Origin: an uncultured Clostridia bacterium
GTDB taxonomy: Bacteria > Bacillota > Clostridia > TANB77 > CAG-508
Direction of reading: 5' to 3'
Length of the DNA: 37,787 nucleotides
NCBI GenBank assembly: GCA_944393475.1
Contig: CALYAI010000003.1
Coordinates: forward strand, 1-37,787
In this document: positions 7,730 through 31,714 of the stretch, piece after piece
Numbering within the stretch: the stretch's first letter is position 1
Layout of the letters: the number at the start of each line of letters is the position of its first letter
The notes under the pieces: model-generated
The model's database searches: none
What the model was told of the DNA's origin: nothing
Seen by the model: only the letters and a program-made list of their open reading frames with translations
Position numbers and translations under genes: made by a program

Positions 7730-8857
7730 TTACCCCAGAGTTAAATTTAAAACATTTGTGTTGTTTCCTCTTTTATATTCTATCTCTATAATGTCTCCAG
7801 GATTTTTTGTATAAATATATTCTTTTATATCATTAATTGTATATATTTCCATTCCATCAATTTTTAGAATTATATCTCCTTTTCTTAATCCACTATTTTC
7901 TGCTGGTCCTCTAGCAGTTACACTTTCTATATATACTCCACTATCTAAATTTAAAGATTTATCTATATAAGAAATTATATCTTTGTCATACCCGGAAATT
8001 CCAATTATGGCTTCTTTAAACTCACCCGTAGTATTATACTTATCTATTATTGGTTTTAATATATTTATTGGCACAGCAAAACCAATTCCTTCTGCAGAGT
8101 CAATTTTTAAAGAATTTATACCTATAACTTCACCATTTGTATTAATTAATGGTCCTCCACTATTTCCCGGATTTATTGTTGCATCTGTTTGTATTAGATC
8201 AGTCATTAATACTTCTTCCCCATTTTCATTAAATTTTATCGTTCTAGACTTTGCACTTATTATTCCAGCAGTAACTGTTCTTTCAAATTCATAACCAAGA
8301 GGATTTCCCACAGCATATACTGTCTGTCCTGCCTGCACATTATCCGAATTTCCTAATTTTATACTCTGTAATCCTTTCATATTTATTTTTACTATGCTTA
8401 AGTCCATATCTGAATCTGCCCATACGACTGTTGCTTCATATGTGTTACTATTTTCTAAGGTTACATAGCAAGTACTATATTTATCACCCGAAACATGTCT
8501 ATTCGTTATTATATATCCATTTGCAGATGCTATAACACCTGTTCCCAATCCTAATTTTTCTATTCCATCCTCTGCTAAAACAGAACTTCCCATGTTTTGT
8601 AGTTTGGAAATTCCTACAACACTATGGTTAACTTCTTCTATCATCTCCTCTATCCCAATATCTTTTTCTTCTTTTTGAGTCGTAGTCTGCATGGTCCTAT
8701 CTACTTTTAAATCTTCATCTATTTTTGCTATATCAGTTCTTATATATAATCTTACTAAAGAGATTGTTAAAACCATTATTAGAGCAATTACAAATATAAT
8801 AAATAGTATATTTGTAATTCTTCTTTTTTTCTTTTTAGTTCTTTTGTATTCCTGCAT
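7730..8857 (-). CDS. HtrA/DegP-like membrane-anchored serine protease with PDZ domain
   Basis: Surface quality-control protease that degrades misfolded exported proteins. I choose ATG 8857 (375 residues), preceded by AAGGGG at 9-nt spacing; the longer frame begins at a TTG (8905) without a ribosome binding site. Order of parts: a basic cytoplasmic tail, one membrane helix (about 14-38), a linker, a trypsin-like domain (about 75-270) with a complete triad, His121 in TNRHVSG, Asp152 in DSDMDLS and Ser233 in NPGNSGGPL, then a PDZ domain (about 280-375) with SGLRKGDIILKIDG. The length matches HtrA/HtrB/YyxA of Firmicutes. It is transcribed left, away from the NRPS operon; the tandem 0A boxes lie just past its stop codon. 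Confidence 0.93.
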   Translation of the reverse strand: MQEYKRTKKKKRRITNILFIIFVIALIMVLTISLVRLYIRTDIAKIDEDLKVDRTMQTTTQKEEKDIGIEEMIEEVNHSVVGISKLQNMGSSVLAEDGIEKLGLGTGVIASANGYIITNRHVSGDKYSTCYVTLENSNTYEATVVWADSDMDLSIVKINMKGLQSIKLGNSDNVQAGQTVYAVGNPLGYEFERTVTAGIISAKSRTIKFNENGEEVLMTDLIQTDATINPGNSGGPLINTNGEVIGINSLKIDSAEGIGFAVPINILKPIIDKYNTTGEFKEAIIGISGYDKDIISYIDKSLNLDSGVYIESVTARGPAENSGLRKGDIILKIDGMEIYTINDIKEYIYTKNPGDIIEIEYKRGNNTNVLNLTLG

Positions 8858-8951
8858 AAACTTCAACCCCTTTTTGGTAAACTTTGTTATATTTATATTT
8901 TCCAAAAACTAATTTTTAATACAAATTTCATCAAGTATTTTTACTTTTCTA

Positions 8952-9019: not shown

Positions 9020-12000
9020 ATGAATAAATATCCATTAGCTTTTCCTCAGCTAGCTCTTTGGAGTGTAGAACAGTTTTTTAAAGGAACAAGTGTTAATGTA
9101 ATAACTGGATATATAAAAGTAAAGGAACAGCTTGATCTTGCATTGTTCGAAGAAGCTGTGCAAACAGTTATTGCTAATACGGATATTTTTGGTGTTCATA
9201 TCTCATACCAAAATGATGAGTTAATGCAAACTTTTAATAAAATGGAACGTAGAAAACTTACAATCGTTAATTTTAAAAATGAAGATGAGTTTACTACTTT
9301 TTTAAACACTGTAGCAACAACTTCTTTTGATATTTTTAATGATGATTTATTTGAATTCACTCTTTTTAAATTTCCAGATGGTACTGGTGGTGTTATTGGT
9401 CGTTTTCATCATATTATATGTGATGCATGGTCAATGAGCCTTGTTATTACAAAAATAATGTCAATATACGAGAATTTAAAAAACAAACTTCCAGCTACTC
9501 AAGGAATAGATTTTGAATCATATATTAATTACATTAATTCTGAACAGGAATATATAGGTAGTGCTAAATACGAAAAATCCAAAGAATTTTGGTTAAATAC
9601 TTTTACTAATAATTTTTCTTATAGCTATTTATGTAACAATATTTCTAATTCTTGTAGTGCACTAAGACAAAAATATTCAATTTCTAAAGATTTAGTTAAG
9701 AATTTGAATGATTTTTGCCAAGCAAATTCCATTTCACTTCCATTGTTATTAATTTCTGTTATAGGAATTTATTTAGCAAAAATTAATGATAATACATGTT
9801 CTACTATTGGTCTTCCAATACTAAATAGAACAAATTTTAAGGAAAAAAATACTATTGGTGCATATATAAGTACCATTCCTTTTAAGATAAATATTTCAAC
9901 TGAAGAAAAATATTTGGATTTTATTAAAAACCTAAAGAAAAATTATTTTGAGATACTAAGAAACCAAAAATATCCATATAATAAAATCTTGGAAGATATC
10001 AGGAAGAAGACAAATGTTTCTAAAAACCTTTACGACGTAGCTTTTTCCTACCAAAATGCTAGGGATAATCATTCTACATCAAATATTTCTTACGAAAGTG
10101 ATTGGATTTTTAATGGCTGTGTTTCTAATAATATGGATATACATATATATGATATGGATAACACTGGGGATTTATCTATAATCTTTGATTATAGAAAGGA
10201 TTTGTTTAATTCATCTGATGTAGAGGAAATTTACTGTAATTTAATGAATATTTTAAAACAAATTATGAATAATCCAAACATCTTGTTAAAAGATATTTCA
10301 CCAGTAGCTAGAGTTGTTAAGGATTTTATTTTAAATGAATATAATAATACTTCTTCTAAGTACCCAGGAGAAATTCCAATTATTAGACTATTCGAAGCCC
10401 AAGCTAAGAAAACTCCTAATAAACTTGCCATAGTAGAAGAAAAAAAAGAATTAACATATTCGGAACTTTTAAATTGCATTAATAATTTGGCATATAGGCT
10501 TACAGCTTCTGGCATTAAATATAAAGATAATGTATGTTTATTCTTCGATAATTCAGTTGAATTAGTCGCTTTGATTTTAGCATGTTTAAAGATAGGTGCT
10601 TGCTATATTCCATTAAACACTTCTTTCCCAATCGAAAGAGTTAAATATATTATGGAAGATAGTAATTCTTCTGCAATTATTACTAATTCAAAAAATGTGA
10701 AGAAAATACCTGGATTTACTAATTCCATCGTAATTAATTATGAGGATTTAGAATTTTCATCTAATAAGGATTACAATGAAGATTTATTAAATTCAGATGA
10801 CTTAGCATATACGATTTATACTTCAGGCTCAACAGGAAATCCAAAAGGAGTTCAAATTGCAAATAGAAGCTTAGTAAATTATATTTATTGGTGTACAAAA
10901 CAATATGTGGCTGGCGAAACCGCAAATTTTCCACTATATTCTTCCATTGCATTTGACCTAACAGTAACATCTGTTTTTACTCCTTTAATTTCTGGAAATG
11001 CAATATATGTATATAATAATTCTAATCCTGAATTATTAATTAAAGAAATTGTAGAAGATAAAAAAATACAGGTACTAAAATTAACCCCTGCACATCTTAC
11101 TTTATTATTAGATGTTGCAACTCCTGACACCTGTATTAAAAAATTAATTTTAGGTGGAGATATCTTAACTGCAGAAATATGTAAAGCAATTACAAATAAA
11201 TTACATAATGGAATAAAAATATATAATGAATATGGTCCGACAGAAGCAACAGTTGGCTGTATGATATATGAATATAGCCTTTTGGATGATTATGTCTCTG
11301 TTCCAATTGGAAGACCAATAGATAATGTGAAAATTTATATATTTAATTCGTCAATGAATTTAATGCCATATAATACTATTGGTGAAATGTATATTGGCGG
11401 AGATTGCCTATCTAAGGGATATTTAAATCTTCCAGAAGTTAATAAAAAAAGTTTTGTACAAAATCCTTTTAATAAAAAAGAAGTACTTTACAAAACCGGT
11501 GATTTAGCTGTAATGCATCCTAATGGAGTTATGGAATACATAGGTAGATCGGATTTTCAAATTAAAATTAATGGATATAGAATAGAAACCGGAGAGGTTC
11601 AATCACAAATACTAAAATATCCATCAATTAAGGATTGTTATGTTATAGATATGAAAATAAAAAATAACAAAGAGCTTTGTGCATACTATATAGAATCTGA
11701 ACCTGTTAATATTGATGATTTAATTGCTACATTGGACAAAAAATTACCAAATTATATGATCCCTAAATATTTCATAAAAATGGATTCATTGCCAATGACA
11801 GTTAATGGTAAGGTAAATAGAAAAGAATTACCTCTTCCTGTAATAAAAAGGAAAGTGGCTCTTATACCTCCTGAAAATGAAGTGGAGGAAAAACTTTGTA
11901 AGGTATTTTGCGAAATTTTAGAGATTAAAAAGATAGGTACAAATGAAAACCTTTTTGATTATTATTTAGATTCTTTAAGCTTAATAAAAGCACAGACTAA

Positions 12001-13297
12001 ATTATATTCAGAAGGATATAATTTGGATACACAGGATTTTTATAATAATAAAACAATTAAAAATTTAGCAGATTATATAATTGGTGGTTATAAAAAAGAA
12101 GAAACAAATAATGAAGAGCTAACAGATATTCATTTTTCGATATCTGATATTCAAAAAGATTTAAAAGCACCCGTAAAAATTAAAAATGTATTGTTATTTG
12201 GTGCAACTGGATTTTTAGGTGTTCATTTACTTCGTGAATTACTAATGAAAACAAATTATAATATATATTGTTTAATTAGAAGCAAGAACAATATAAATCC
12301 AACCGAAAGATTAAAAGAGAAAATAAATTTCTATTATCCAGATACGGATATTAGCAAATATGTAGATAGAGTTACTATTTTGGAAGGAAATTTATTGGAC
12401 GAACATTTTGGATTACAAGATGATGAATATAATAATTTACTAAATACTATTGATGTTTGTATACATTCTGCTGCACTTGTAAAACACTATGGAGACTATA
12501 ATTTATTCCATCAGACAAATGTTGTCTCTACAGAAAAAATAATTGAATTCTGTAATGCAGGACATAGTAAGTTGGAATATATTTCTACAATTTCTGTTTC
12601 AGGATTTGGATTAGTGGACACACCTATTGCTGAATTTAGCGAAAACAATTTATATATTGGTCAAAATTATAAAGATAATGTATATGTACATAGCAAATTC
12701 GAAGCAGAGTATTTAATAATAGAAGCTTGCAAAAATACGAATTTAGTAGCAAGTATTTATAGAATTGGTAATCTTTCTAACAGATATAGTGATGGTGTTT
12801 TCCAAGAAAATGCATTAGAAAATTCTTCTTTAAATAGAATAATTGCATGTATAAACTTAGGTTGCTATCCAAAAGAATTAGAAGATTTTCATTTGGAATT
12901 TTCACCTGTTGATATTTGTGCAAAGAATATTGTTTCTTTAATGAATTGTCAAGATAAAAATTTAAAAGTATATCATTTATATGATGATCACTTTACAGAT
13001 TTCGGAAAGATTAATAAGATTTTAAAAAAGAATAATATAAATTTAAAGTCAGTTACGGCAAAAGATTTTAAAGATAGTTTATTAAATGATAAAAATAATT
13101 ATTTTGGTTTTGCAAATTTAATAAATAATACTATTACTAGTAATTTAAAAATAAGTAATAAAATTACAGAAGATACTTTAGTAAAGCATAATTTATGTTG
13201 GCCAGAAATTAATTCTTCTTATATACAAAAAATTATTGATTATTTAATAAAAAATAAATTTATAAAAGGAGCAAAAGATGAAGAAAAATCCAATTAA
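9020..13297 (+). CDS. Single-module reductive nonribosomal peptide synthetase, C-A(Asn)-T-R
   Basis: A 1425-residue one-module NRPS with reductive release. Order: condensation domain (about 1-430; HHIICDAWS with His130, His131 and Asp135, Ala in place of the usual Gly136), adenylation domain (about 455-960; YTSGSTGNPKG, NEYGPTEAT, YKTGDL, NGKVNRKEL), carrier domain (about 975-1045; phosphopantetheine Ser985 in YYLDSLSL), reductase (about 1057-1420; GATGFLG at 1061-1067 and Tyr1222/Lys1226 in YVHSK). Residues at the ten specificity positions are Asp646, Leu647, Thr650, Lys687, Ile710, Gly712, Glu737, Val745, Gly746, Lys931, i.e. DLTKIGEVGK, the established asparagine code. With the C domain first and no epimerase, the expected product is an N-acylated asparaginal, its cyclised form or the alcohol. 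Start ATG 9020 with AAAGGATGTGA. The 3' end overlaps the kinase gene by 20 nt. Acyl donor, PPTase and exporter are not in the window. Confidence 0.95.
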   Translation: MNKYPLAFPQLALWSVEQFFKGTSVNVITGYIKVKEQLDLALFEEAVQTVIANTDIFGVHISYQNDELMQTFNKMERRKLTIVNFKNEDEFTTFLNTVATTSFDIFNDDLFEFTLFKFPDGTGGVIGRFHHIICDAWSMSLVITKIMSIYENLKNKLPATQGIDFESYINYINSEQEYIGSAKYEKSKEFWLNTFTNNFSYSYLCNNISNSCSALRQKYSISKDLVKNLNDFCQANSISLPLLLISVIGIYLAKINDNTCSTIGLPILNRTNFKEKNTIGAYISTIPFKINISTEEKYLDFIKNLKKNYFEILRNQKYPYNKILEDIRKKTNVSKNLYDVAFSYQNARDNHSTSNISYESDWIFNGCVSNNMDIHIYDMDNTGDLSIIFDYRKDLFNSSDVEEIYCNLMNILKQIMNNPNILLKDISPVARVVKDFILNEYNNTSSKYPGEIPIIRLFEAQAKKTPNKLAIVEEKKELTYSELLNCINNLAYRLTASGIKYKDNVCLFFDNSVELVALILACLKIGACYIPLNTSFPIERVKYIMEDSNSSAIITNSKNVKKIPGFTNSIVINYEDLEFSSNKDYNEDLLNSDDLAYTIYTSGSTGNPKGVQIANRSLVNYIYWCTKQYVAGETANFPLYSSIAFDLTVTSVFTPLISGNAIYVYNNSNPELLIKEIVEDKKIQVLKLTPAHLTLLLDVATPDTCIKKLILGGDILTAEICKAITNKLHNGIKIYNEYGPTEATVGCMIYEYSLLDDYVSVPIGRPIDNVKIYIFNSSMNLMPYNTIGEMYIGGDCLSKGYLNLPEVNKKSFVQNPFNKKEVLYKTGDLAVMHPNGVMEYIGRSDFQIKINGYRIETGEVQSQILKYPSIKDCYVIDMKIKNNKELCAYYIESEPVNIDDLIATLDKKLPNYMIPKYFIKMDSLPMTVNGKVNRKELPLPVIKRKVALIPPENEVEEKLCKVFCEILEIKKIGTNENLFDYYLDSLSLIKAQTKLYSEGYNLDTQDFYNNKTIKNLADYIIGGYKKEETNNEELTDIHFSISDIQKDLKAPVKIKNVLLFGATGFLGVHLLRELLMKTNYNIYCLIRSKNNINPTERLKEKINFYYPDTDISKYVDRVTILEGNLLDEHFGLQDDEYNNLLNTIDVCIHSAALVKHYGDYNLFHQTNVVSTEKIIEFCNAGHSKLEYISTISVSGFGLVDTPIAEFSENNLYIGQNYKDNVYVHSKFEAEYLIIEACKNTNLVASIYRIGNLSNRYSDGVFQENALENSSLNRIIACINLGCYPKELEDFHLEFSPVDICAKNIVSLMNCQDKNLKVYHLYDDHFTDFGKINKILKKNNINLKSVTAKDFKDSLLNDKNNYFGFANLINNTITSNLKISNKITEDTLVKHNLCWPEINSSYIQKIIDYLIKNKFIKGAKDEEKSN

Positions 13298-15281
13298 AAA
13301 ATTATTATTAATTCATATGGTCCTTATGGCCTTTATATGTATAATGCTATATTTGCTTATACCATATGTATTAAATTATCCACCAAATTCTATAGATAAT
13401 GACTTTCAGATCGAAGTTGTTGGAATAAAATATAGTACTCAATTTATAATTTTAGCAGTTGTTCTTTCTATTTTTATTTTTACAGCTCTAATGTTTTTAT
13501 ATAATATGCTTTCTTTAAAAAAGATAAGAAATAAAAGTACTAATAAAATTGATGCTAAACAAGTAGAAAAAATAAGGAAAAGAAGTTTTACTTTTCCTTA
13601 TCTAGTATTACTACTTACTTTATTAGTGCCACCGTCTGTTGTATGTTTTTGTTTATTTTTATTTAATACAACACCGGAACTGAACTTAAGAATAACAATT
13701 ATAATCTTCTGTATGTCTGCAATATTTTCGATATGTTCGTATATTGCAAATAAGAGCTTTTTTATAAATACTTTGGTAAAAACGTCAAAAATATCTAATA
13801 ACAAAGTATCTGGTTTAAGACTTAATTTATATACCAAAATATTATTACAGATGTTACCAATATTCTTATATTCATTTATAATTATATTGTTATTATCTTT
13901 ATCTTTACTAACAACGGAGAAAGGTGACTTAATTTATAATTTATATCATCAGGAGCTTTCTAATTATTTCTCTGACAAAAGTAAAGTATATGATATAAAT
14001 GAATTACCAAATATATTAAAAGAAAATATAGAATTACAAAACCCAGAAGATAATTTCTTTATTATATCTTGCACAGATGGTAAGATACATTATTCAGAAG
14101 AAGAATTAAATACATTCTTCCAAAAATATTTAAGTGAATTTTACGATAAGACAAATGGACATATTTATGATAACTATGGTCAGAATATAGAAGGAAGTGC
14201 AATAAAGATACATACAAATGAAGGAGATTGCTATATTGGTGTTAGGTTCTATGTATTCTCTACTTCTTTTGTAACACCATTTATAATTGCAACAATAATA
14301 TTAATCTTCTTTAATATATTATTCGTATTATATATTAGTAAGGATTTAAGTAATGATATTAAAACCATAAGTAGGCAACTAAAAGCAATTGCAGCTTCCG
14401 ATGATATCTCTAATGAGCATAATTTACCAGTTACCTCAAATGATGAATTAGGTGACTTAACTATTGCATTTAATAGGGTTCAAGATAAAACAAAAGAATA
14501 TAATGATACTATTAAATCAAATCAAGAAACTCTTATGGAAAGTGAACGTCTAGCATCTCTAGGACAATTGATTGGAGGAATTGCTCACAATCTAAAAACA
14601 CCTATTATGTCAATTTCTGGTGCAGCAGAAGGATTAACAGATCTAGTAAAAGAATATGATTCTTCTATAGACGATCCAGAAGTAACTTCTGCAGATCACC
14701 ATGATATTGCAAAAGATATGAATGAGTGGATCGGAAAAATTAAAACATATGCAGAATATATGTCTGATATCATAACTGTTGTTAAAGGTCAAGCTGTAAA
14801 TCTTTCTTCTGATAATAATATGTATTTTAAAATTGATGAGTTGTTAAAAGATATTAATATTTTGATGAAGCATGAATTAAAGAGTGCTCTTGTTACATTG
14901 GATATTCATAATTATGTTGGCTCAGATGTACAAATAAATGGTGACGTTAATGCTTTGGTTCAAGTAATTAATAATATGATAACAAATGCTATACAAGCAT
15001 ATAATGGGGAACCAAATAAAACTATAAATTTAACCTTAAAAACAGATGCTTCTAAGTTATTCATAGAAGTTCAAGATTCTGGCTCTGGAATGCCTGACGA
15101 AGTAAAGGATAAATTATTTAAAGAAATGATTACTACAAAAGGTAAAAATGGTACTGGACTAGGATTATTTATGTCCTACTCTACTATAAAAGCACATTTT
15201 AATGGTAATATAGATTTTGAATCTGAACTTGGAAAAGGAACTACTTTTATAATAACCATTCCATTACCAAAGCTTAAATAA
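13278..15281 (+). CDS. Multi-pass membrane sensor histidine kinase coupled to the NRPS
   Basis: A 667-residue sensor kinase. The N-terminal half has five hydrophobic helices (about 8-30, 56-78, 103-128, 137-157, 189-212), an extracytoplasmic region (about 213-332), a sixth helix (about 333-355) and a HAMP-type linker, then a kinase core. The H-box is LIGGIAHNLKTP with phospho-acceptor His437; HNLKTP replaces the common HELRTP. The ATPase part shows the N box (NMITNAIQA), DSGSGMP and GTGLGLF, so it should be active. ATG 13278 lies inside the NRPS gene with AAAGGAG 6-7 nt upstream, meaning translational coupling. A strong terminator follows. The likely partner is the response regulator 145 bp downstream. 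The signal is unknown; sensing the NRPS product is a hypothesis. Confidence 0.92.
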   Translation: MKKNPIKKLLLIHMVLMAFICIMLYLLIPYVLNYPPNSIDNDFQIEVVGIKYSTQFIILAVVLSIFIFTALMFLYNMLSLKKIRNKSTNKIDAKQVEKIRKRSFTFPYLVLLLTLLVPPSVVCFCLFLFNTTPELNLRITIIIFCMSAIFSICSYIANKSFFINTLVKTSKISNNKVSGLRLNLYTKILLQMLPIFLYSFIIILLLSLSLLTTEKGDLIYNLYHQELSNYFSDKSKVYDINELPNILKENIELQNPEDNFFIISCTDGKIHYSEEELNTFFQKYLSEFYDKTNGHIYDNYGQNIEGSAIKIHTNEGDCYIGVRFYVFSTSFVTPFIIATIILIFFNILFVLYISKDLSNDIKTISRQLKAIAASDDISNEHNLPVTSNDELGDLTIAFNRVQDKTKEYNDTIKSNQETLMESERLASLGQLIGGIAHNLKTPIMSISGAAEGLTDLVKEYDSSIDDPEVTSADHHDIAKDMNEWIGKIKTYAEYMSDIITVVKGQAVNLSSDNNMYFKIDELLKDINILMKHELKSALVTLDIHNYVGSDVQINGDVNALVQVINNMITNAIQAYNGEPNKTINLTLKTDASKLFIEVQDSGSGMPDEVKDKLFKEMITTKGKNGTGLGLFMSYSTIKAHFNGNIDFESELGKGTTFIITIPLPKLK

Positions 15282-15304
15282 CTTATAGATTAATTATATT
15301 TTTC

Positions 15305-15345
15305 AAAAAGAACTAATTGGTTGATTTCCAATTAGTTCTTTTTTT
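15305..15345 (+). terminator. Strong intrinsic terminator of the NRPS-kinase operon
   Basis: A 16-bp perfect stem (15305-15320 with 15328-15343; core GAACTAATTGG/CCAATTAGTTC), a 7-nt loop, and seven T. It separates the kinase from the response regulator, which has its own promoter. Confidence 0.9.
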
Positions 15346-15373
15346 ACAAATTTATGTTTTTTTCGATTTTTTA

Positions 15374-15402
15374 TTGCTTTTGTGCCTGTTTATTTATATA
15401 AT
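15374..15402 (+). promoter_or_regulatory. SigA-type promoter of the HD-GYP response regulator
   Basis: TTGCTT (15374-15379), 17-bp spacer, perfect TATAAT (15397-15402). Predicted start near 15409, 18 nt before ATG 15427. The promoter overlaps the 5' extension of the longest open frame (from 15382), which argues that the extension is not translated. Confidence 0.65.
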
Positions 15403-15426
15403 TTTTATATTAGGAGGACTGTCAAT

Positions 15427-16455
15427 ATGAGAAAGAATCAAGTTACAGCCAAAAGCACTGGTTTTAAAATAATTGGTGTTGACGATGAACAAGGAATCTT
15501 AGATTCTCTATCTATTTTTATGAAAAGATCTGGCTACGAATTTGTAGGAATAACAGATCCATTAGAAGCAATTAATCGCGTAAAATCTAAACATTTTTAT
15601 TTAATGATACTAGATTTTATTATGGATCCAATTCATGGTGATAAAGTTGTAGAAGAAATTCGTAAATTTAATAAAGATTTATATATTTTACTTCTAACTG
15701 GACACAAAGATTTGGCTCCACCACTAGAAACGATCCATCAATTGGATATACAGGGTTATTGTGAAAAAAGTGATAAGTTCGATCAATTATTGCTATTAAT
15801 AGAATCTGGCTTAAAGTCTGTAAGTCAAATGAGAACTATTAGTAAAATGAATGATGATCTACAAAAAGCATATATGGATAGTATAGAAATTCTAAGACAT
15901 ACAGTAGAAGCAAAGGACCCATATACAAAAGGGCATTCTGACAGAGTTTCTGCATATGCTGTTTTGCTTGGTCAGAAGTTGTCTTTGGCTGGAGAAGATA
16001 TAGAAAAGTTAAGAATTGGTGGACTTTTTCATGATATAGGAAAAATTGGTATCCCGGACAGTATTCTTTTAAAAGAATCTAAATTAACAGACGAAGAATA
16101 TGCAAAGATTAAAGAGCATCCAGTAATTGGCTATAATATGTTGGAACATGCAACGATGTTTAATGATATTCTAGATATTGTAAAATATCATCATGAAAAA
16201 TTTGATGGTTCTGGTTATCCTGAGCAAATAGCAGGTTCTAATATTCCTTATCTCGCAAGGATTACAGCTGTTGTAGATGCCTTTGATGCAATGACTTCAA
16301 AAAGAAGTTATAGAGATTCTTTACCAATGGATGTTGTAAAATCTGAAATATTAGCAAACCTTGGTTCTCAATTTGATCCAGAAATAGGTATCGCATTTTT
16401 AGATATTTTAGATAATAATTTTAATGCCATTAAAGAAATACAAGAAAAGTATTAA
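15427..16455 (+). CDS. Response regulator with HD-GYP phosphodiesterase output (REC-HD-GYP)
   Basis: A two-domain regulator of 342 residues. The REC domain (about 8-130) has the acidic pair in VDDEQ, phospho-acceptor Asp63 in MILDFIMD, Thr in LLLTGH and the conserved Lys in CEKSDK. A helical linker leads to the HD-GYP domain (about 150-335): KDPYTKGHS, His202-Asp203 in FHDIGKIGIPD, HHEKFDGSGYP with Gly263-Tyr264-Pro265, and AVVDAFDAMTS. HD-GYP enzymes hydrolyse cyclic di-GMP, and some act on cGAMP. All metal-binding residues I can see are intact. Start ATG 15427 follows AGGAGG at 9 nt. It is the obvious partner of the upstream kinase, though a terminator and promoter lie between them. No GGDEF gene and no cyclic di-GMP riboswitch were recognised in the window, so its targets are elsewhere. 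Confidence 0.93.
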   Translation: MRKNQVTAKSTGFKIIGVDDEQGILDSLSIFMKRSGYEFVGITDPLEAINRVKSKHFYLMILDFIMDPIHGDKVVEEIRKFNKDLYILLLTGHKDLAPPLETIHQLDIQGYCEKSDKFDQLLLLIESGLKSVSQMRTISKMNDDLQKAYMDSIEILRHTVEAKDPYTKGHSDRVSAYAVLLGQKLSLAGEDIEKLRIGGLFHDIGKIGIPDSILLKESKLTDEEYAKIKEHPVIGYNMLEHATMFNDILDIVKYHHEKFDGSGYPEQIAGSNIPYLARITAVVDAFDAMTSKRSYRDSLPMDVVKSEILANLGSQFDPEIGIAFLDILDNNFNAIKEIQEKY

Positions 16456-16497: not shown

Positions 16498-17463
16498 ATG
16501 GTTTTAACTGCTTCAGAAACAAGAAAGCAAGCTAGAGAATCTTTAAAAGGTAAATGGGGAACTGTTGCTATAATATCTTTAATATTTATAGCATATTCAT
16601 TTTTAATGGGCTTTCTTTCTGCAATACCTTTTCTAGGTTTCTTAGTTTCTATTGCTTCAATTGTTATTAATTTTCCAATTATGTATGGATTTGTAATGAA
16701 TTTTATGAAGCTAAAAAGAGGAGAAGAAGTAGGATATTTTGATTTCTTTAAGGATGGTTTTGCAAATTTTGGAAGAGCATGGTCTGTTCTAGGAAGATTA
16801 TTACAAAAAATGTTAGTACCACTTATTTTACTAGTAGTTGCTGTAATTATTGTAATAGTTGCATTGGTTGGAGTAATAGCTTCAGCAGGTCTTGCTATTG
16901 CTTCTATGGGAGCTTATGTATCTTCTGAGACAGCATTATCTTATCTATTATCAAATGTATCAGTATTTTCATTAGTAGCTATGCTTATAGCTGTTATACT
17001 AGAATTTATTGCTTACATATGGATAATTATTAAATCTTTCCATTATGGACTTGGAATGTATATCGCAATAGATAACCAAAATGCAACAGCACTTGAATGC
17101 ATGAACCAAAGTAAAGAAGTTATGGACGGACATAAAGGTCGTTTATTCAGCTTATATTTATCTTTCATCGGTTGGATTTTACTTGATATGTTATTAGCTG
17201 CAATTCCTGTTGTAGGTGTTATATTATCATATGCAGGATTAGTATTCCTAATACCATATATGCAATTTGCTTCTATTATTTTCTACGAAGATAGAATGGG
17301 AATAAATTCACCTGTAACTGCAGAAGGAACAGTTGCATCAGAAGATTCTGAAAGTAATTCAAACGAAAATGTAGAAAGCAAAGAAATAAAAGAAATGTCT
17401 GGTTCTACAGATGTAAAAGCAGAAATTGTTGATATACCAGAAATAGATAATAAAGACGAATAA
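16498..17463 (+). CDS. DUF975-family multi-pass membrane protein
   Basis: A 321-residue integral membrane protein of the DUF975 type, recognised by the N-terminal ASETRKQARESLKGKWG motif followed by about six helices. Helices lie near 25-70 (two), 108-135, 155-180, 215-240 and 245-262. The last 60 residues are a soluble, Glu/Ser/Asn-rich tail (SEDSESNSNENVESKE) that would be cytosolic. Start ATG 16498 follows AAGGAGGGG. It comes 42 bp after the response regulator with no terminator between, so both are probably on one transcript, which ends at the symmetric hairpin 17473-17512. The family has no established function; a link with HD-GYP signalling is only suggested by position. Confidence 0.82.
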   Translation: MVLTASETRKQARESLKGKWGTVAIISLIFIAYSFLMGFLSAIPFLGFLVSIASIVINFPIMYGFVMNFMKLKRGEEVGYFDFFKDGFANFGRAWSVLGRLLQKMLVPLILLVVAVIIVIVALVGVIASAGLAIASMGAYVSSETALSYLLSNVSVFSLVAMLIAVILEFIAYIWIIIKSFHYGLGMYIAIDNQNATALECMNQSKEVMDGHKGRLFSLYLSFIGWILLDMLLAAIPVVGVILSYAGLVFLIPYMQFASIIFYEDRMGINSPVTAEGTVASEDSESNSNENVESKEIKEMSGSTDVKAEIVDIPEIDNKDE

Positions 17464-17472
17464 TAATTAAAT

Positions 17473-17512
17473 AAATAAAAACTTCTTAGATTATTCTAAG
17501 AAGTTTTTATTT
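17473..17512. terminator. Bidirectional terminator between DUF975 gene and tex
   Basis: An 18-bp perfect stem (17473-17490 with 17495-17512, core ACTTCTTAGA/TCTAAGAAGT) and a 4-nt loop. A and T runs at the ends make it work in both directions. Its right arm reaches the tex stop codon. Confidence 0.85.
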
Positions 17513-19664
17513 ACCCTATTTTCATAGAAAGTTTTACTTTTTGTCTTTCATTATCTATTCCAATAACTTTTACCTTTACAATATCTCCTACAGATACTAT
17601 GTCTGATGGATTTTTTACAAATTTTTCACTCATCTCTGATATGTGGACAAGTCCATCATGTTTTACTCCAATATCCACAAATGCTCCAAAGTCAATAACA
17701 TTTCTTACTGTTCCTGTTAATATCATTCCCTCTTTTAAATCCTCGAACTTTAGTACATCCTGTCTTAATATTGGTTTTGGCATATCTTCCCTAGGATCTC
17801 TTCCTGGTTTAGAAAGTTCATCTATTATATCTTTTAATGTCATTTCTCCTACATCAAGCTTTTTAGCGGTTTCTCCAAGTTTTACATCCAATAGTTTCTT
17901 TCTTATTTCAACTAATTTTTCTTTATCCTTTAAATCTTCAGTTCCATATCCTAGTGATTTAAGTAATTCTTCTGCTATTCCATAACTCTCTGGGTGAACA
18001 GCTGTATTTTCCAATGGATTTTTTCCATCAGGAATTCTAATAAAGCCTGCACATTGCTCGAATGCTACTTTCCCTAATTTTGGAACTTTTAATAATTCTT
18101 TTCTTTCTTTTAATTTTCCATTTTCGTCCCTATATTTAACAATGTTTTTTGCAATAGTTTTATTTATTCCAGATACATAAGAAAGTAATGATGGGGTAGC
18201 TGTATTAACATCAACTCCTACTTTGTTAACACTATCTTCTACTACACCTGCTAAGCTTTCTTCCAATTTCTTTTGATTTACATCATGTTGGTATTGACCT
18301 ACACCAATTGATTTTGGATCTATTTTTACAAATTCTGCAAGTGGATCTTGTAATCTTCTTGCAATGGAAATTGCCCCTCTTATAGAAACATTTATGTCTG
18401 GATACTCTTCTGTTGCAAGTTTAGATGCAGAATATACAGATGCTCCTGCTTCGCTTACTATTGTGTATAATACTTTGTGATCACATTTTTTTATCATTTC
18501 AGAAACAAACATCTCGGATTCTCTTGAGGCTGTTCCATTTCCTATTGCAATCATATCTACATGGTCTTTATTTATTAATCTAACTAATTCCTTTTCTGCT
18601 CCAACTATATCATTTTGTGGCTCTGTTGGATATACTGTTGTAATATCCATTACTTTACCTGTTTCATCTATTATTGCAATCTTACAACCAGTTCTATATG
18701 CTGGGTCAAATCCCATAACAGTAATTCCTTTTATTGGGGCTCCAAGTAATAATTGTTTTGCATTTTTCCCAAAAACTTTTATTGCTTGTTCTTCTGCTTT
18801 TTCCGTTAGATCTGATCTTATCTCCCTATCTACAGATGGCTCTATTAATCTTTTAAAGCTATCTTCCACAGTTGCTTTTAAATATTCTGTAAATTGAGTT
18901 TCTCCCTTTATTATGTCTTCTTCTATTTTTCCTAAAATCTTTTCTTCATCTTTTATGATTTTTACTTTTAAGAATTCTTCTTTTTCTCCCCTATTAATAG
19001 CAAGTATTCTATGGCTAGGCATTTTATTTACATTTTCACTATAGTCATAATACATCTCGTATGCAGATCTTTCATCTGGCTTTGTTGCTTTTGTTTCTAT
19101 AGTACCTTTAGAATATATCATTTGCTTTATCATTTTTCTATATTCTGGATTGTCAGATATCATTTCTGCAATAATATCCAATGCTCCCTGAATTGCCTCT
19201 TCTACAGTTTTTACTTCTTTTTCTTCATTAATAAACTGTTCTGCTATTTCTTTTATATCTCTTTTTTCTTCTTGAGCCAAAATAATTTCTGCTAAAGGCT
19301 CCAATCCCTTTGCTTTCGCAACAGTTGCTCTTGTCTTTTTCTTTTGCTTATATGGTCTATATATATCTTCTACTTCTGCAAGTGTTGTTGCATTTTGTAA
19401 GTCTTGTTTTATTTCATCTGTTAATTTCCCTTGCTCATTTATAGAATTTTCAACCTCTTCTTTTCTTTTTTCTAAGTTTCTTAAGTATGTTAATCTTTCG
19501 CCAAATGTTCTTAAGATTTCGTCCGAAAGACCTCCAGTTACTTCTTTTCTATATCTAGCTATAAAAGGAATTGTATTGCCTTCATCTATTAAATTTATAG
19601 TATTTTGCACTTGGCTTTGTTTAATATTTAATTCCTCAGCTATTATTTGTATAATTTTATCCAT
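17511..19664 (-). CDS. tex: Tex-type S1 RNA-binding protein
   Basis: Nucleic-acid-binding Tex protein (YdcI/Spt6-like core), 717 residues, the usual size. Order: helical Tex N-terminal region with NTIPFIARYRKEVTGGL (about 25-50), YqgF/RNase H-like domain beginning GITVMGFDPAYRTG (about 315-440), helix-hairpin-helix part with NTATPSLLSYVSGI (about 485-560), and a C-terminal S1 domain with GTVRNVIDFGAFVDIG (about 640-715). I start at ATG 19664, preceded by GGGAGAG; the frame could extend six codons to a GTG, but those codons are the ribosome binding site. It follows the ABC-F gene by 31 bp and is probably the last gene of the corA operon. Tex acts in transcription or RNA turnover and tolerance to stress; the exact reaction is not settled. 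Confidence 0.95.
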   Translation of the reverse strand: MDKIIQIIAEELNIKQSQVQNTINLIDEGNTIPFIARYRKEVTGGLSDEILRTFGERLTYLRNLEKRKEEVENSINEQGKLTDEIKQDLQNATTLAEVEDIYRPYKQKKKTRATVAKAKGLEPLAEIILAQEEKRDIKEIAEQFINEEKEVKTVEEAIQGALDIIAEMISDNPEYRKMIKQMIYSKGTIETKATKPDERSAYEMYYDYSENVNKMPSHRILAINRGEKEEFLKVKIIKDEEKILGKIEEDIIKGETQFTEYLKATVEDSFKRLIEPSVDREIRSDLTEKAEEQAIKVFGKNAKQLLLGAPIKGITVMGFDPAYRTGCKIAIIDETGKVMDITTVYPTEPQNDIVGAEKELVRLINKDHVDMIAIGNGTASRESEMFVSEMIKKCDHKVLYTIVSEAGASVYSASKLATEEYPDINVSIRGAISIARRLQDPLAEFVKIDPKSIGVGQYQHDVNQKKLEESLAGVVEDSVNKVGVDVNTATPSLLSYVSGINKTIAKNIVKYRDENGKLKERKELLKVPKLGKVAFEQCAGFIRIPDGKNPLENTAVHPESYGIAEELLKSLGYGTEDLKDKEKLVEIRKKLLDVKLGETAKKLDVGEMTLKDIIDELSKPGRDPREDMPKPILRQDVLKFEDLKEGMILTGTVRNVIDFGAFVDIGVKHDGLVHISEMSEKFVKNPSDIVSVGDIVKVKVIGIDNERQKVKLSMKIG

Positions 19665-19695
19665 TTCTTTCTCTCCCATCACACATATAAATTAT

Positions 19696-22371: not shown

Positions 22372-25300
22372 TTATAAAACTTTTTTCTTAATTACTATAA
22401 CTCCTGTTACTAAAATTGCTAGTCCTACAATTGTTATAATTATTAATGTTAATTGCTTGTTTGCACCAAATGGTACAACAAATGTTAAGATTTCTGATCT
22501 ACCAGTGTCTAATTCTTCTATGTTTTCGAATGTTGTAGGGTCTGCGTTACCAGGTATTTCTACCTCTTCCTGTCCTGTTGTATCCTCATAATATGGTCTT
22601 CTACCATTATCTATTTTTAATTCGATTATTTCTGCTATATTTTGCATATCATCGGATGATGAAGTTTCTTCGGCACCTGCTATAACTCTTACACATCGTA
22701 TTATATCTGGAACATTTGCTGTTTCGCCTGGTTGTAGTTTTTGTCCTGAAGTTACACTTGTTTCTAGAGCTTCATCCAAACTTTCTGTTATATTATCAAA
22801 TACATCAGGTGATAAGTATTCTCCTCTGTAACTACTATCCAGTGTTACACTGTTTTGTTTATTTAATAGTACCTTCCAAACATCGTTTGTTTTTTCGTAG
22901 TCTAAAGCATTTGGAATGTAATCAATTATTTTTTCTGATGACATTTTGTTTATTGTATTCTTATTTTCTACATTTCCTGTATAATAATATGATTGTTCAT
23001 TATAGTCTATTTCACTGTAGTTTCTTACATAATATGTATATTCAACTGTTAATGAAGATCCGTATAGTAAGTTCTCGTCAACTGTTCCCTGGACTAAACC
23101 TGTTGTTACATTTCCATTTTCGTCATATTTATTTGCAACCCAAGTTAAGTTTGGTGCAGTTGATCTAGAATCGAATATTGTACTTCCATCAGTTGCTGTT
23201 AATTTTACATAAGTTACATTTTTGTTTAATACAATCTTTGTTCTTGGTCTTTCTATAATTCCAAAGTCTATATTATCTACAGAATAATTTGGTTGTTCTT
23301 TACCTAGGTATTCTACTTCTAGAGACATTTGTGCAGTATCTGCAAACATGCTTGTATTATTTGCAAGTTCTTCTAACATTGCATCATCTGCATCTCTTGT
23401 AGCATTTAATACTGTAGCATTTGAATATCTTAAAGTTTCGCTATATGCATTTACAGTCTCTCTTCTGTTCCAATCATCTTTTGCATCATTGTTTCTTGGT
23501 GTTGTATTTTGGTACCAGTATTTATCTGAATAATTTCCTTCTGTATAAATTGTTGATTTATAATCTTGTCCTGTATACATTTGGTCATTCATTTGTACTG
23601 CTTTTATACATGTTAGGTCACCATATGTAAATTGTAAATAGTAATCACCTGGTATATAACCACTTATTTCGTATGTACCGTCTTCATTTGTTCTTACTTC
23701 TTTAGGGTTTAAAGTATTTACATCTTCGTTTGTACAAATTAATTTTACAAAAACTTGGTTTACTTTAAATTCCTCATCTTGGTATGTTCCATCTCCGACT
23801 CTTTCATTATTTTTTAGTCTATCATCCAATGGTAAATCTTCGAATGCAATACCATTCATTTTTCTTTCTTCGTTATTTAATACTAATCTTAATGCTGGTG
23901 CAGCATCTGCATCATCTTCGAATACTTCCATACTACGTTTTGTTTTTGCTTCTCCACCTTGATTTTGATATTCTTGTGTTTTTGCATCTGCTACTAATTG
24001 TTGAACATCAGCATCTGTTGGGTTCATATTGTCCGGTGTAGAATCTATATCTAATAGACCTGCATTTTCACCTGCATTTGATATTGTATTTCCGTCTAAG
24101 TCTTTTCTATCGTTTGTATATGCATTTCTATAACCCGCAATTTCTGCAAAATTATCTTCATAAGTTTGTCCTTCTGAAAGAAGAGCTCTTAATGTATCAT
24201 TAGAAACTTTGTACTGAACAAATATCCATTTTTTATCTGTTATTCCTTCATTTGCTAAAGATGTTGTATGTAGTTTTTGGTATGTTTTACCATTTCCAGA
24301 TACAGTTCCAGATGAATTCCAACTGATTTGCTTATTGTTTTCATCATAAGAATTAACTAATTCGTATGATGTATCTGCATAGTCATTTAAGTCTAATACA
24401 TATCCTGTAATTTCTCCAACTGATTGGTTCTTTATTTGGATCTTGTATGTTACAAATACTTGTAATTTATCTCCATCATTATCATATTGTACATCTGACT
24501 TATATATAACATCTTCGCTTCTTAAACTTCTATTATAATTTGGTACATCTGTACCTCTTATTTCTATATTAAGATCTTCTCCGGCACCATTATAATCATA
24601 AGTATGTGTCTTTCCATTTATTTGTACATCAACTTTTATTAAGTCTTTTCTTAAGTTTAGGTCAAATTCTTCTCTTTCCTTAATACCAAAGTTTACGTTT
24701 CGTCTTACTTCCAATGATTTTCCTGCATTATATATTGTTAAACTTTGTAAACCATCTGATCCAGTATATGCATAAATCATAAACATTTCATTTGTAGTAT
24801 CATCCCTACTTGGATATGTATGTTGTGCATCGACTGGTGTAAATTTATCATTAAAAGCTCTTCTGTTTTCTTTACCGTCTGTTGCATGTGATTGTACTTC
24901 TACTGAAGCACCATCTTTTTGGTAAGTTGTTGGTTCATATATTTGACCATTATATTTAAATCTTACATAACATTCTAGATTTATATCCAGTTTGTCAAAT
25001 TCATAATATCCATTACCGTCGGTTGTTGTACTTGCAAGCTGTGTTCCATTTTGGTCAAATAACACTACTTCTACTCCTGATAGCATTACGTCTCCATTAC
25101 TTAGGATACCATCTTCTCTACCATCTTTTTGTGCAAGTTTATCTAAGAATACTTTTCCAGATAACTTCCATACTACATGTAATGGGAATTCACCATTATT
25201 GTATAGGAATGGATCATCTTTTCCATTTTCGTATTTATCTTGTACATCTACAACGAAGTAAATCATTGTATCTGCACCTTGGTAATACTCTGGCGAAGCA

Positions 25301-26796
25301 GTACCTTTTAATCCTTTAAGTGTTTTTTGTAATGTAATTGTTTTTGTATATGTGTCTCCACTTGCTGCCCAACCATTTTCATTTCCTGGTTGTAATATAT
25401 ATCCTGGTCCTGGTTCATCCACTAGTTCATATGTTGCACCCGGTGCTGATGCTCCCGGTCCTATGTTATATATTACCCATTGGAATTCTACCAAGTCCCC
25501 ATCATATATATAGGGAACTCCATTTTCATCTAAATCTTCTGCACTAAAGTATTTTTTATAATCTGGATATGTTACCTCTGTAACTTTAGCACTATTTTTA
25601 CCTCGATTTGCAATTGTTAATTTAGGTATTTCATTTATTGTAAATAGTCTTTTATATGTTCCATCATCTTGTAATCTTTGTACAGATTTTAGATATTTAT
25701 ATGCAACTAGTATTGGTTTTGCTGGTGGTACTTTTAATGTTAATGAACCATTTCCTTCTGTATGTGTTGCATTAAACACAGCTATTCTTTGACTTCCACC
25801 ACCACCAAGTAATAGGATTCTTCCAGCATATAAATCTGTTCCAGTTGTACTTAATGTTATACTTTGTATTTCATCTGCTATTCCATCTATATGTATATAA
25901 AAATCTTGACCACTAGGAATATCACTAAGTGCAATTTCTTCTTTGTTACTATTAAGTACTGTTACAGATCCATCTTCTGTAGAATATTTCTGATTTTTAT
26001 CATCTATTGTTATTCCGGTAACTTCGCCATTTCCAGAAAATTCTAATCTGTATGGTCCTAAGATTGTTTCTGTATCTGTAAATTCAATATCTGGATCTCC
26101 TTGCGAAGCATTTTTAACACCTCCAACACCTCCTTGTATTCCTTCTGCATATGCTTTTGCATCTTGATATACTCCTTGGTATCTAGATCCATAAGCAGTT
26201 GAACCATCTGTTTGCCATCCCGACCAATCTTTATATCCAGAATGTGCAAAAGCACTAAATGCACCGTTATAATTTTGAGCATGATTAGCAAAACAAACTA
26301 TATTACGAAGAAAGAAGTCATCATCACTTCCATTATCAGGTCTATTTGCCAACCAATTTGCAAGATACGCCATAAAACGTGCTCTTTTTACTATATCTGA
26401 ATCTGTAATATTCTGCAATCCGGCATTTCCATATAGCGTTGTTGGTGTATATACATTTAATCCTTGCCAATTATTTCCTAATGTTCCATTATAACTATTA
26501 TCTATATCGATTATAGCTAATATTTGATATGCCCCTTTATTAGGTGAAGAAGCTGTGTGTGGGTCTATACACGCTGCAGTTCTCTGATCAATTGTTCCTC
26601 TAGCAACTTCTACAGCACCAGCATATCTATAATCACTTGATAAAAATCCTGTTACTCCACTGGCAGCTGTTGCTAACTGTAAATCGGTATAAGATTTTAC
26701 GTTGTTTTTTGCTATTATAGCTATTCCTATAAAAATTATTAATATTAAGGCAAGATTAATTAAAACTTTCTTTTTAACTTCTTTTTTAGTTTTCAT
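22372..26796 (-). CDS. Giant surface protein with SdrD-B/Cna-B-like domains, C-terminal membrane anchor
   Basis: A 1474-residue exported protein. It begins with a basic tail and one hydrophobic helix (about 10-29), then an unassigned N-terminal domain (about 40-225) with a lone ACIDPH cysteine and a Trp/Tyr-rich end. A middle part (about 230-550) holds beta-rich and DUF11-like stretches. Next come an SdrD-B/Cna-B-type unit with TTTDGNGYYEFDKLDI, further DUF11-like repeats, and a second Cna-B-like unit with RTNEDGTYEISGYIPGDYYL near 1070. It ends with one helix and VIVIKKKVL. I see no LPXTG-type motif. Glu/Asp/Asn/Thr-rich throughout, fitting a stalk or adhesin. ATG 26796 lies inside the 3' end of the preceding gene (11-bp overlap), with GGGAGG upstream, so both are made together. 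No enzymatic residues recognised. Confidence 0.85.
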   Translation of the reverse strand: MKTKKEVKKKVLINLALILIIFIGIAIIAKNNVKSYTDLQLATAASGVTGFLSSDYRYAGAVEVARGTIDQRTAACIDPHTASSPNKGAYQILAIIDIDNSYNGTLGNNWQGLNVYTPTTLYGNAGLQNITDSDIVKRARFMAYLANWLANRPDNGSDDDFFLRNIVCFANHAQNYNGAFSAFAHSGYKDWSGWQTDGSTAYGSRYQGVYQDAKAYAEGIQGGVGGVKNASQGDPDIEFTDTETILGPYRLEFSGNGEVTGITIDDKNQKYSTEDGSVTVLNSNKEEIALSDIPSGQDFYIHIDGIADEIQSITLSTTGTDLYAGRILLLGGGGSQRIAVFNATHTEGNGSLTLKVPPAKPILVAYKYLKSVQRLQDDGTYKRLFTINEIPKLTIANRGKNSAKVTEVTYPDYKKYFSAEDLDENGVPYIYDGDLVEFQWVIYNIGPGASAPGATYELVDEPGPGYILQPGNENGWAASGDTYTKTITLQKTLKGLKGTASPEYYQGADTMIYFVVDVQDKYENGKDDPFLYNNGEFPLHVVWKLSGKVFLDKLAQKDGREDGILSNGDVMLSGVEVVLFDQNGTQLASTTTDGNGYYEFDKLDINLECYVRFKYNGQIYEPTTYQKDGASVEVQSHATDGKENRRAFNDKFTPVDAQHTYPSRDDTTNEMFMIYAYTGSDGLQSLTIYNAGKSLEVRRNVNFGIKEREEFDLNLRKDLIKVDVQINGKTHTYDYNGAGEDLNIEIRGTDVPNYNRSLRSEDVIYKSDVQYDNDGDKLQVFVTYKIQIKNQSVGEITGYVLDLNDYADTSYELVNSYDENNKQISWNSSGTVSGNGKTYQKLHTTSLANEGITDKKWIFVQYKVSNDTLRALLSEGQTYEDNFAEIAGYRNAYTNDRKDLDGNTISNAGENAGLLDIDSTPDNMNPTDADVQQLVADAKTQEYQNQGGEAKTKRSMEVFEDDADAAPALRLVLNNEERKMNGIAFEDLPLDDRLKNNERVGDGTYQDEEFKVNQVFVKLICTNEDVNTLNPKEVRTNEDGTYEISGYIPGDYYLQFTYGDLTCIKAVQMNDQMYTGQDYKSTIYTEGNYSDKYWYQNTTPRNNDAKDDWNRRETVNAYSETLRYSNATVLNATRDADDAMLEELANNTSMFADTAQMSLEVEYLGKEQPNYSVDNIDFGIIERPRTKIVLNKNVTYVKLTATDGSTIFDSRSTAPNLTWVANKYDENGNVTTGLVQGTVDENLLYGSSLTVEYTYYVRNYSEIDYNEQSYYYTGNVENKNTINKMSSEKIIDYIPNALDYEKTNDVWKVLLNKQNSVTLDSSYRGEYLSPDVFDNITESLDEALETSVTSGQKLQPGETANVPDIIRCVRVIAGAEETSSSDDMQNIAEIIELKIDNGRRPYYEDTTGQEEVEIPGNADPTTFENIEELDTGRSEILTFVVPFGANKQLTLIIITIVGLAILVTGVIVIKKKVL

Positions 26797-31648: not shown

Positions 31649-31685
31649 AGGAACACCCCTTAATTGCATAAATATTATTATTATC

Positions 31686-31714
31686 AATATAGCAACATAT
31701 TTTTCTTAATTCAA
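31686..31714 (-). promoter_or_regulatory. SigA-type promoter of the surface-protein operon
   Basis: TTGAAT (31714-31709), 17-bp spacer, TATATT (31691-31686). Predicted start near 31679, about 31 nt before ATG 31648. Confidence 0.65.

Follow-up and report, generated by a model that had tools for sequence, protein, structure and literature searches.

Why does a gene for a non-ribosomal peptide synthetase (NRPS) run into a gene for a membrane sensor kinase? The question is raised by a locus of an uncultured Clostridia bacterium, whose genome (1.33 Mb, 82% complete, 115 contigs) includes contig C3, the stretch of 37,787 nucleotides (nt) analysed here and called the window below. Its plus strand carries a one-module NRPS of 1425 residues (9020..13297), a sensor histidine kinase of 667 residues (13278..15281) and a response regulator of 342 residues with REC and HD-GYP domains (15427..16455). 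An earlier note on this DNA had proposed that the NRPS product is the ligand of the kinase. Comparison with related loci indicated that the NRPS varies together with the sensor half of the kinase and hardly with the kinase core. We consider it probable that the NRPS is a synthase whose matched receptor is the sensor half, the pair feeding a conserved chain of kinase core and HD-GYP regulator.

Co-occurrence of the NRPS and kinase genes

The earlier note placed the kinase ATG 20 nt inside the NRPS gene, and this was confirmed: the ATG lies at 13278, is preceded by AAAAGGAG, and the two open reading frames overlap by 20 nt if the NRPS stop is counted (13278..13297, plus strand). Such tight spacing recurs among 98 intact pairs of the bacterial family, with an overlap in 23 and a gap of 0-30 nt in 58 more. 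The overlap likely leads to translational coupling.

We searched 145 genomes of the family, many relatives being derived from gut samples, for the kinase, the NRPS and the regulator. At cut-offs for a strong match of E <= 1e-91 for the kinase (108 genomes) and E <= 1e-100 for the NRPS (110 genomes), both genes were found in 107 genomes, the NRPS only in 3, the kinase only in 1 and neither in 34 (Fisher p 1.7e-28, relatedness ignored). Eleven NRPS-negative genomes were derived by elimination, and four with weaker NRPS matches were counted as negative. Among the NRPS-only genomes, the contig ends just behind the NRPS in G072 and within the next frame in G040, and the third, G083, is not explained; the kinase-only genome, G073, is 68% complete.

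The NRPS adjoined the kinase in 107 of the 113 family kinase stretches (window excluded); a script gave 106, to which we added tandem locus L163, whose first kinase follows an NRPS. Four of the six other stretches end at a contig edge, and the rest are G033, where NRPS and kinase lie on separate contigs, each beside other genes, and G140 with its orphan kinases. The best 80 named loci from the kinase scan, taken partly from the same genomes as the 113 stretches, had an NRPS within 700 nt in 78 cases; one had no room for it and L210 had none. Counted across the family, NRPS homologues usually come with the kinase and kinase homologues with the NRPS, as the earlier note had expected.

The pairing extended beyond the family. 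Fourteen loci represent three further families of the same order; a single family supplied 12 of them, picked by kinase score. The order was NRPS-kinase in 11 and kinase-NRPS in two, and in one (L195) an AMP-ligase-like gene lay between. The two reversed loci (L193 10426-17928; L189 1-2949) belong to separate genomes within one other family of the order; there the kinase comes first, so NRPS and kinase stay linked even when gene order changes. At the level of the class, 42 of 291 genomes gave a strong NRPS match; 5 belong to the family studied here, 4 more to its order and 33 to other orders. We read 4 kb behind the NRPS in six loci picked by score and architecture, two from a fifth family within the order and four from the 33 genomes of other orders. 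A kinase came next in five of the six, of the 7TM type in three, and three of these then had a REC-DUF3369-HD-GYP regulator. The NRPS-kinase-HD-GYP arrangement was seen in three families of other orders.

A third, distant type of NRPS-kinase pair, with 26-29% kinase identity, was observed at L172 10447-13414, L167 6058-13279, L173 and L174, and G131 carries it on two contigs. Its regulator has REC and, in place of HD-GYP, roughly 200 residues that match no known domain (Pfam for L172).

Covariation of the NRPS with the sensor half

We split the kinase at about residue 410 into a sensor half and a core. Two genomes of one genus, G134 and G089, shared 87% identity in the neighbouring HtrA-like protease, 91% in the kinase core and 94% in the regulator, and only 37% in the NRPS and 34% in the sensor half. 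Along their kinases, identity was about 30% up to residue 380 and 88-100% from residue 420, with a sharp rise at about 390-405. In the window the variable half comprises residues 1 to about 400 (13278..14477), and the conserved core with HisKA and HATPase_c follows at 14478..15281, both on the plus strand. The two regions were alike together in other comparisons: NRPS 80% and sensor 84% between the window and G134, and 84% and 72% between G089 and G105.

A partial Mantel analysis gave the same picture. The sensor half correlated with the adenylation, carrier and reductase (A-T-R) part of the NRPS at r 0.64 given the core (80 loci, 0/2000 permutations), and again at 0.64 given core and regulator (59 loci, 0/2000 permutations). 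By class, this partial r was 0.92 for the main sensors with six transmembrane (TM) helices (29 loci) and 0.58 for 7TM sensors (47 loci), and that between core and NRPS given the sensor was -0.09 and 0.02, respectively. Among 3240 pairs of loci, 47 had at least 60% identity in A-T-R, none of them with a sensor below 42%, and 28 had at least 60% in the sensor, none of them with A-T-R below 50%; 44 had at least 80% in the core, and in 24 of those both sensor and A-T-R were below 45%. The tree correlation that the earlier note had suggested as a check thus showed a sensor half that follows the NRPS and a core that hardly does. The regulator was rejected as a part of the varying cassette (regulator with NRPS given core, r -0.02).

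The covariation reached the specificity code of the adenylation (A) domain. Pairs from different genera with like codes (at most one difference) had a median sensor identity of 48% versus 30% (0/2000 label shuffles) and a core identity of 66% versus 65% (219/2000 shuffles; 41 versus 492 pairs). In 33 two-module loci, the sensor tracked the code of the nearer domain, A2 (49% versus 43%, 0/1000 shuffles).

Sensor architecture also matched the number of modules. There are two main architectures, six TM helices with an extracytoplasmic domain, or HisKA_7TM (PF16927) with PAS. In loci that no contig end interrupts, and with modules counted from the summed length of the NRPS, six-helix sensors stood beside a one-module NRPS in 40/40 cases (37 without the distant third type), and 7TM sensors beside one module in 5 loci and more in 41 (Fisher p 2.3e-19, relatedness ignored). 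By parsimony on a midpoint-rooted FastTree tree of core and regulator (61 loci), sensor class changed 12 times, module number likewise 12 times and the two jointly 13 times, with one exception in the 61 loci; a tree of the regulator alone gave 13, 14 and 14. Random labels required 18.7 changes on average (minimum 13), and hence the labels are still inherited to some degree; weak branches may make the switch count too high. As there were about 12 switches and both classes occur within twelve genera, the match of class and module number is unlikely to be one old inherited accident.

Could the adjacent NRPS and sensor half have been swapped as one block between conserved flanks, namely the HtrA/promoter side and the kinase core, without any binding of the product? 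The breakpoint at the start of the conserved core is consistent with such hitchhiking, as is the stronger correlation with the near A2 than with A1. Other neighbours, however, covary less: core and sensor correlated at a raw r of 0.29 despite contiguity, and HtrA and NRPS at 0.16 given the core. Given the core, moreover, the sensor correlated at 0.87 with the A domain, over 1 kb away, and at 0.65 with the condensation (C) domain. The pairing is also kept at reversed order and in G062, G037 and G103, where HtrA and Tex are not near the pair within the stretch read, and sensor class matched module number through the repeated switches. We regard hitchhiking alone as quite improbable.

Window gene order is HtrA-like protease (7730..8905, minus strand), NRPS, kinase, hairpin, regulator, DUF975 membrane protein (16498..17463, plus strand) and Tex-like protein (17511..19682, minus strand). 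The protease often borders the locus on the left and is not part of the swapped cassette, and the Tex-like protein often borders it on the right; the DUF975 protein sometimes adjoins the regulator and is probably outside the core of the system. The flanks follow core and regulator (HtrA with regulator 0.74, HtrA with core 0.64, Tex with core 0.51), and Tex correlated with the sensor at 0.08 given the core.

Several results weigh against a matched pair. The core retained a correlation with A-T-R given sensor and regulator (r 0.12, 17/2000 permutations) and with the C domain given the sensor (r 0.23, 35/2000 permutations). Residual correlations of HtrA given the core were 0.24 with the sensor (0/2000) and 0.16 with the NRPS (15/2000). 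Sensors of two-module loci did not track the distant A1 code (44% versus 43%, 195/1000), and tracking of A2 without A1 would be expected if the C-terminal residue is recognised, but equally if the genes are merely linked. Because NRPS and sensor are contiguous, linked transfer without functional matching could cause part of the correlation. Five 7TM sensors stand beside one-module NRPSs, and in G451, of another order and one of the four such loci read of 33, there was no kinase within 4 kb behind the NRPS.

Nevertheless, we are reasonably confident of a synthase-receptor pairing of NRPS and kinase. With co-occurrence and tree correlation both as predicted, we infer, with good support from adjacency and covariation, that the NRPS product is the kinase ligand.

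From predicted product to regulator output

What would the ligand be? The domain order of the window NRPS is Condensation, AMP-binding, PP-binding and NAD_binding_4/thioester reductase, all on the plus strand: a C domain at 9023..10303 (HHIICDAWS, with HHxxxD present), an A domain with main and C-terminal parts at 10391..11812, a phosphopantetheine carrier domain at 11888..12079 (LDSL, Ser present) and a thioester reductase domain at 12188..13264 (GATGFLG and YVHSK present). The terminal domain scored 158 bits against NAD_binding_4 (cut-off 20) and 190 bits against TIGR01746, under its cut-off of 213. This architecture, C-A-T (T, carrier) with a terminal thioester reductase and intact motifs, predicts reductive release. 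The AusA (aureusimine synthetase) equivalog was rejected, with 681 bits where NF047350 requires 2500. In a separate test, a NosR-family regulator (NF053512) was rejected as well, at 189 bits against a curated cut-off of 400.

The A-domain code, DLTKIGEVGK, is Asn-like, taking DLTKLGEVGK to be the textbook Asn code; among 34 one-module loci with long kinases there were 19 different codes. A separate AMP-ligase gene, of 539-598 residues (e.g. L063 13533-15260, L087 4319-6019), was found within two genes of the NRPS in only 20/108 loci and is absent from the window. We infer N-acylation because the NRPS begins with a C domain. The one-module NRPS would thus load one amino acid, Asn by its code, and probably acylate it; reductive release would yield an N-acyl amino aldehyde, and two-module relatives would make dipeptide aldehydes.

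A different NRPS, of 1828 residues and without a reductase or kinase match, was observed in G062 and G037 (L176 3457-12399; L177 70-8709), with an HD-GYP regulator a few kb behind it and, in G062, HtrA before it. The NRPS-kinase pair of these genomes lies on another contig.

The kinase of the adjoining gene may bind the predicted product, either extracellularly or in the membrane itself. HATPase_c scored well above its cut-off, and HisKA and HAMP slightly under theirs. After merging of overlaps, six hydrophobic segments were found (residues 4-35, 47-81, 103-133, 134-159, 184-214 and 324-358), and residues 212-332 (13911..14273, plus strand) were confidently modelled as an extracytoplasmic domain (pLDDT 91), which bears out the six helices and outside region described in the earlier note. 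His437 was kept in 106/106 aligned kinases. Six-helix sensors would read one-module products, and 7TM-PAS sensors most of the longer ones.

In a structure search, the sensor domain alone was weakly like CpxA, CzcS and PAS-type domains (best E 2.9e-3, TM-score 0.40). Identification by fold failed with the full-length model, whose 50 listed matches were mostly kinase cores. The likeness to the sensor domains of CpxA and CzcS, together with an HtrA gene beside many loci, could mean that the kinase senses another cue, such as envelope or protease stress, with control of the NRPS as its sole role. This would leave unexplained why sensors vary with NRPS allele and A-domain code when the core, the regulator and, among close relatives, HtrA remain similar; we consider it very improbable.

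Two loci carry two kinases behind one NRPS. In G140 (L163 2004-5798), tandem kinases are 37% identical in their sensor halves and 52% in their cores, the second being perhaps a second receptor or a heterodimer partner. In G029 (L169 2093-5993), each of two kinases is split into sensor and core frames, one sensor being six-helix-like and the other 7TM-PAS.

The kinase gene is followed by a terminator-like hairpin and a T run (15305..15343, plus strand). With flanks it folds at -18.8 kcal/mol (z -5.4, 0/200 shuffles as good), so that the terminator seen by the earlier note holds by folding; a consensus terminator scan did not list it. The regulator likely starts at ATG 15427, behind AGGAGG, rather than at the upstream GTG 15382. 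A promoter of its own, which the note had assigned to it, is not established: a promoter scan found no plus-strand site between the hairpin and 15427, and by eye there is TTGCTT, 17 nt and TATAAT.

Counted from ATG 15427, Asp63, HD202-203, HHE255-257 and GYP263-265 are intact, as the note had stated, and are so in 72/72 aligned regulators; two further REC positions are kept in 71/72, with a gap in one. Regulators of at least 60% identity, full-length, split or cut by a contig end, were found in 104/107 genomes having NRPS and kinase. In the 34 genomes with neither gene, a full-length regulator of at least 60% was found in 2 and of at least 50% in 4, and three further genomes of those 34 gave 57-63% identity in the HD-GYP part only. 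The regulator gene lay immediately downstream in 71/113 family kinase stretches. The expected conservation of the HD-GYP gene thus stood at the level of genomes, and adjacency was less regular. Pfam recognised no DNA-binding domain in the regulator. The conserved kinase core would change the phosphorylation of this regulator, whose phosphodiesterase activity would in turn alter a cyclic dinucleotide.

Other results fit this chain less well. The regulator is missing from 3/107 genomes having both genes and is not immediately downstream in 42/113 stretches (one cut by a contig end). PilZ was found in 0/13 genomes of the genus and 2/21 relatives overall, and the c-di-GMP-I riboswitch in 3/59 family genomes, not including the source genome. 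For the synthase, the 82% complete genome yielded a single phosphopantetheinyl transferase match, which has the size of AcpS. Rfam at gathering thresholds gave a tRNA as the sole match in the window, with no known cyclic di-GMP riboswitch before the NRPS. GGDEF matches occurred in 145/145 family genomes; those of the source genome are a 309-residue REC-GGDDF protein and a 373-residue protein with a degenerate motif. The cyclic dinucleotide read-out proposed earlier is therefore no more than plausible, given the scarcity of known effectors, and cyclic di-GMP itself is an uncertain, rather doubtful candidate for the output. At L180 3320-4249 lies a 309-residue protein with REC and GGDDF; frames of similar length with partial GGDEF matches were seen in many family genomes.

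Might the system serve only its own regulation? The NRPS product would then be an effector, e.g. a protease-inhibiting aldehyde, and the kinase would gauge its own cell's production or tolerance, without communication. Lantibiotic kinases sense their own lantibiotic, and self-regulation predicts the same covariation and cassette exchange. Excerpts of two papers describe gut NRPSs making dipeptide aldehydes (PMC12327764) and gut peptide aldehydes inhibiting proteases (PMC12282076). On the other side, the regulator has an HD-GYP phosphodiesterase and lacks any recognised DNA-binding domain, and in the Pfam annotation of the window neither an exporter nor an immunity gene separates the three genes or directly adjoins them. 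We therefore consider pure self-regulation unlikely.

Elsewhere in the window, two very large proteins (1474 and 1633 residues) with SdrD_B-like domains are encoded at 22372-31687 in frames overlapping by 11 nt, and a long minus-strand frame at 1-2840, RNA polymerase beta-like by eye, seems to extend beyond the window start.

Known systems and meaning of the pairing

Is such a circuit already known? The closest layout is that of the diffusible signal factor (DSF) system of Xanthomonas and others, which likewise clusters a membrane sensor kinase with a REC-HD-GYP regulator. The rpfF-rpfC-rpfG cluster encodes a synthase, a multi-helix sensor kinase and a REC-HD-GYP regulator, the fatty-acyl ligase RpfB may adjoin it, and Stenotrophomonas has two RpfF variants, each paired with an RpfC variant, the two RpfC variants differing in TM helix number (PMC4504480). 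The AMP-ligase near the NRPS in some of our loci recalls RpfB. However, the synthase here is an NRPS and not the crotonase-type RpfF (the test for a DSF synthase failed), and thus the locus is not a DSF member. Its kinase is non-hybrid and ends after HATPase_c, whereas RpfC has REC and HPt; the hosts are Clostridia, and there are many alleles rather than the two of Stenotrophomonas. By analogy, the locus may well work like DSF despite the different synthase.

In its evolution, the locus resembles the ComQXPA pherotypes of Bacillus, where, in the part of the source seen, signal and N-terminal kinase sensor are polymorphic, the cytoplasmic kinase part is conserved and gene overlaps occur (PMC4008528). 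Here too synthase and sensor half covary while kinase core and regulator are conserved, although between species, not strains. In contrast to ComQXPA, the predicted product is non-ribosomal and not a modified peptide, and the output is HD-GYP instead of a DNA-binding regulator; no ComQ, ComX or ComA domain was found among 19 window products scanned (frames of at least 80 residues).

The reductase-ended architecture is that of the gut dipeptide-aldehyde and pyrazinone NRPSs (ruminopeptin and the compounds of the Fischbach group), for which a kinase partner is unmentioned in the excerpts of PMC12327764. Valdiazen (ham) shows, in the portion consulted, that reductive-release NRPS chemistry can yield a diffusible autoinducer, with tailoring enzymes required (PMC5878181); the words kinase and receptor are absent from the text of that paper, and an excerpt from 2023 describes the Pvf receptor as still to be found (PMC10194917). 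Like valdiazen/Pvf, our locus would make its signal by an NRPS, and here a kinase gene adjoins it. Among titles and opening lines of abstracts from a search of open-licence full texts, there was no paper on the pairing of an NRPS with a sensor kinase in Clostridia. The 'new type of system' of the earlier note was too strong, as the DSF/Rpf layout and NRPS-made signals were already known.

We know of no system that combines a DSF-like layout, ComQXPA-like evolution and gut aldehyde-NRPS chemistry, nor of an established native role for the products of gut aldehyde NRPSs. Synthase and sensor would be inherited and exchanged as a cassette, giving species 'dialects' on one common output chain. That the pair signals between cells is plausible, with the case evenly balanced. 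It might equally be right or wrong that the modular NRPS is a readily re-programmed autoinducer synthase, that interchangeable cassettes give each species of uncultured gut Clostridia its own dialect of acyl-amino or dipeptide aldehydes, and that gut 'protease-inhibitor' aldehydes are primarily pheromones. The comparison suggests the gene next to the NRPS as the source of the receptor and offers many natural allele pairs. If the proposal is true, NRPS products would be added to the signals that two-component receptors recognise with pherotype-like specificity, and communication groups would become readable from metagenomes through A-domain code and sensor type.

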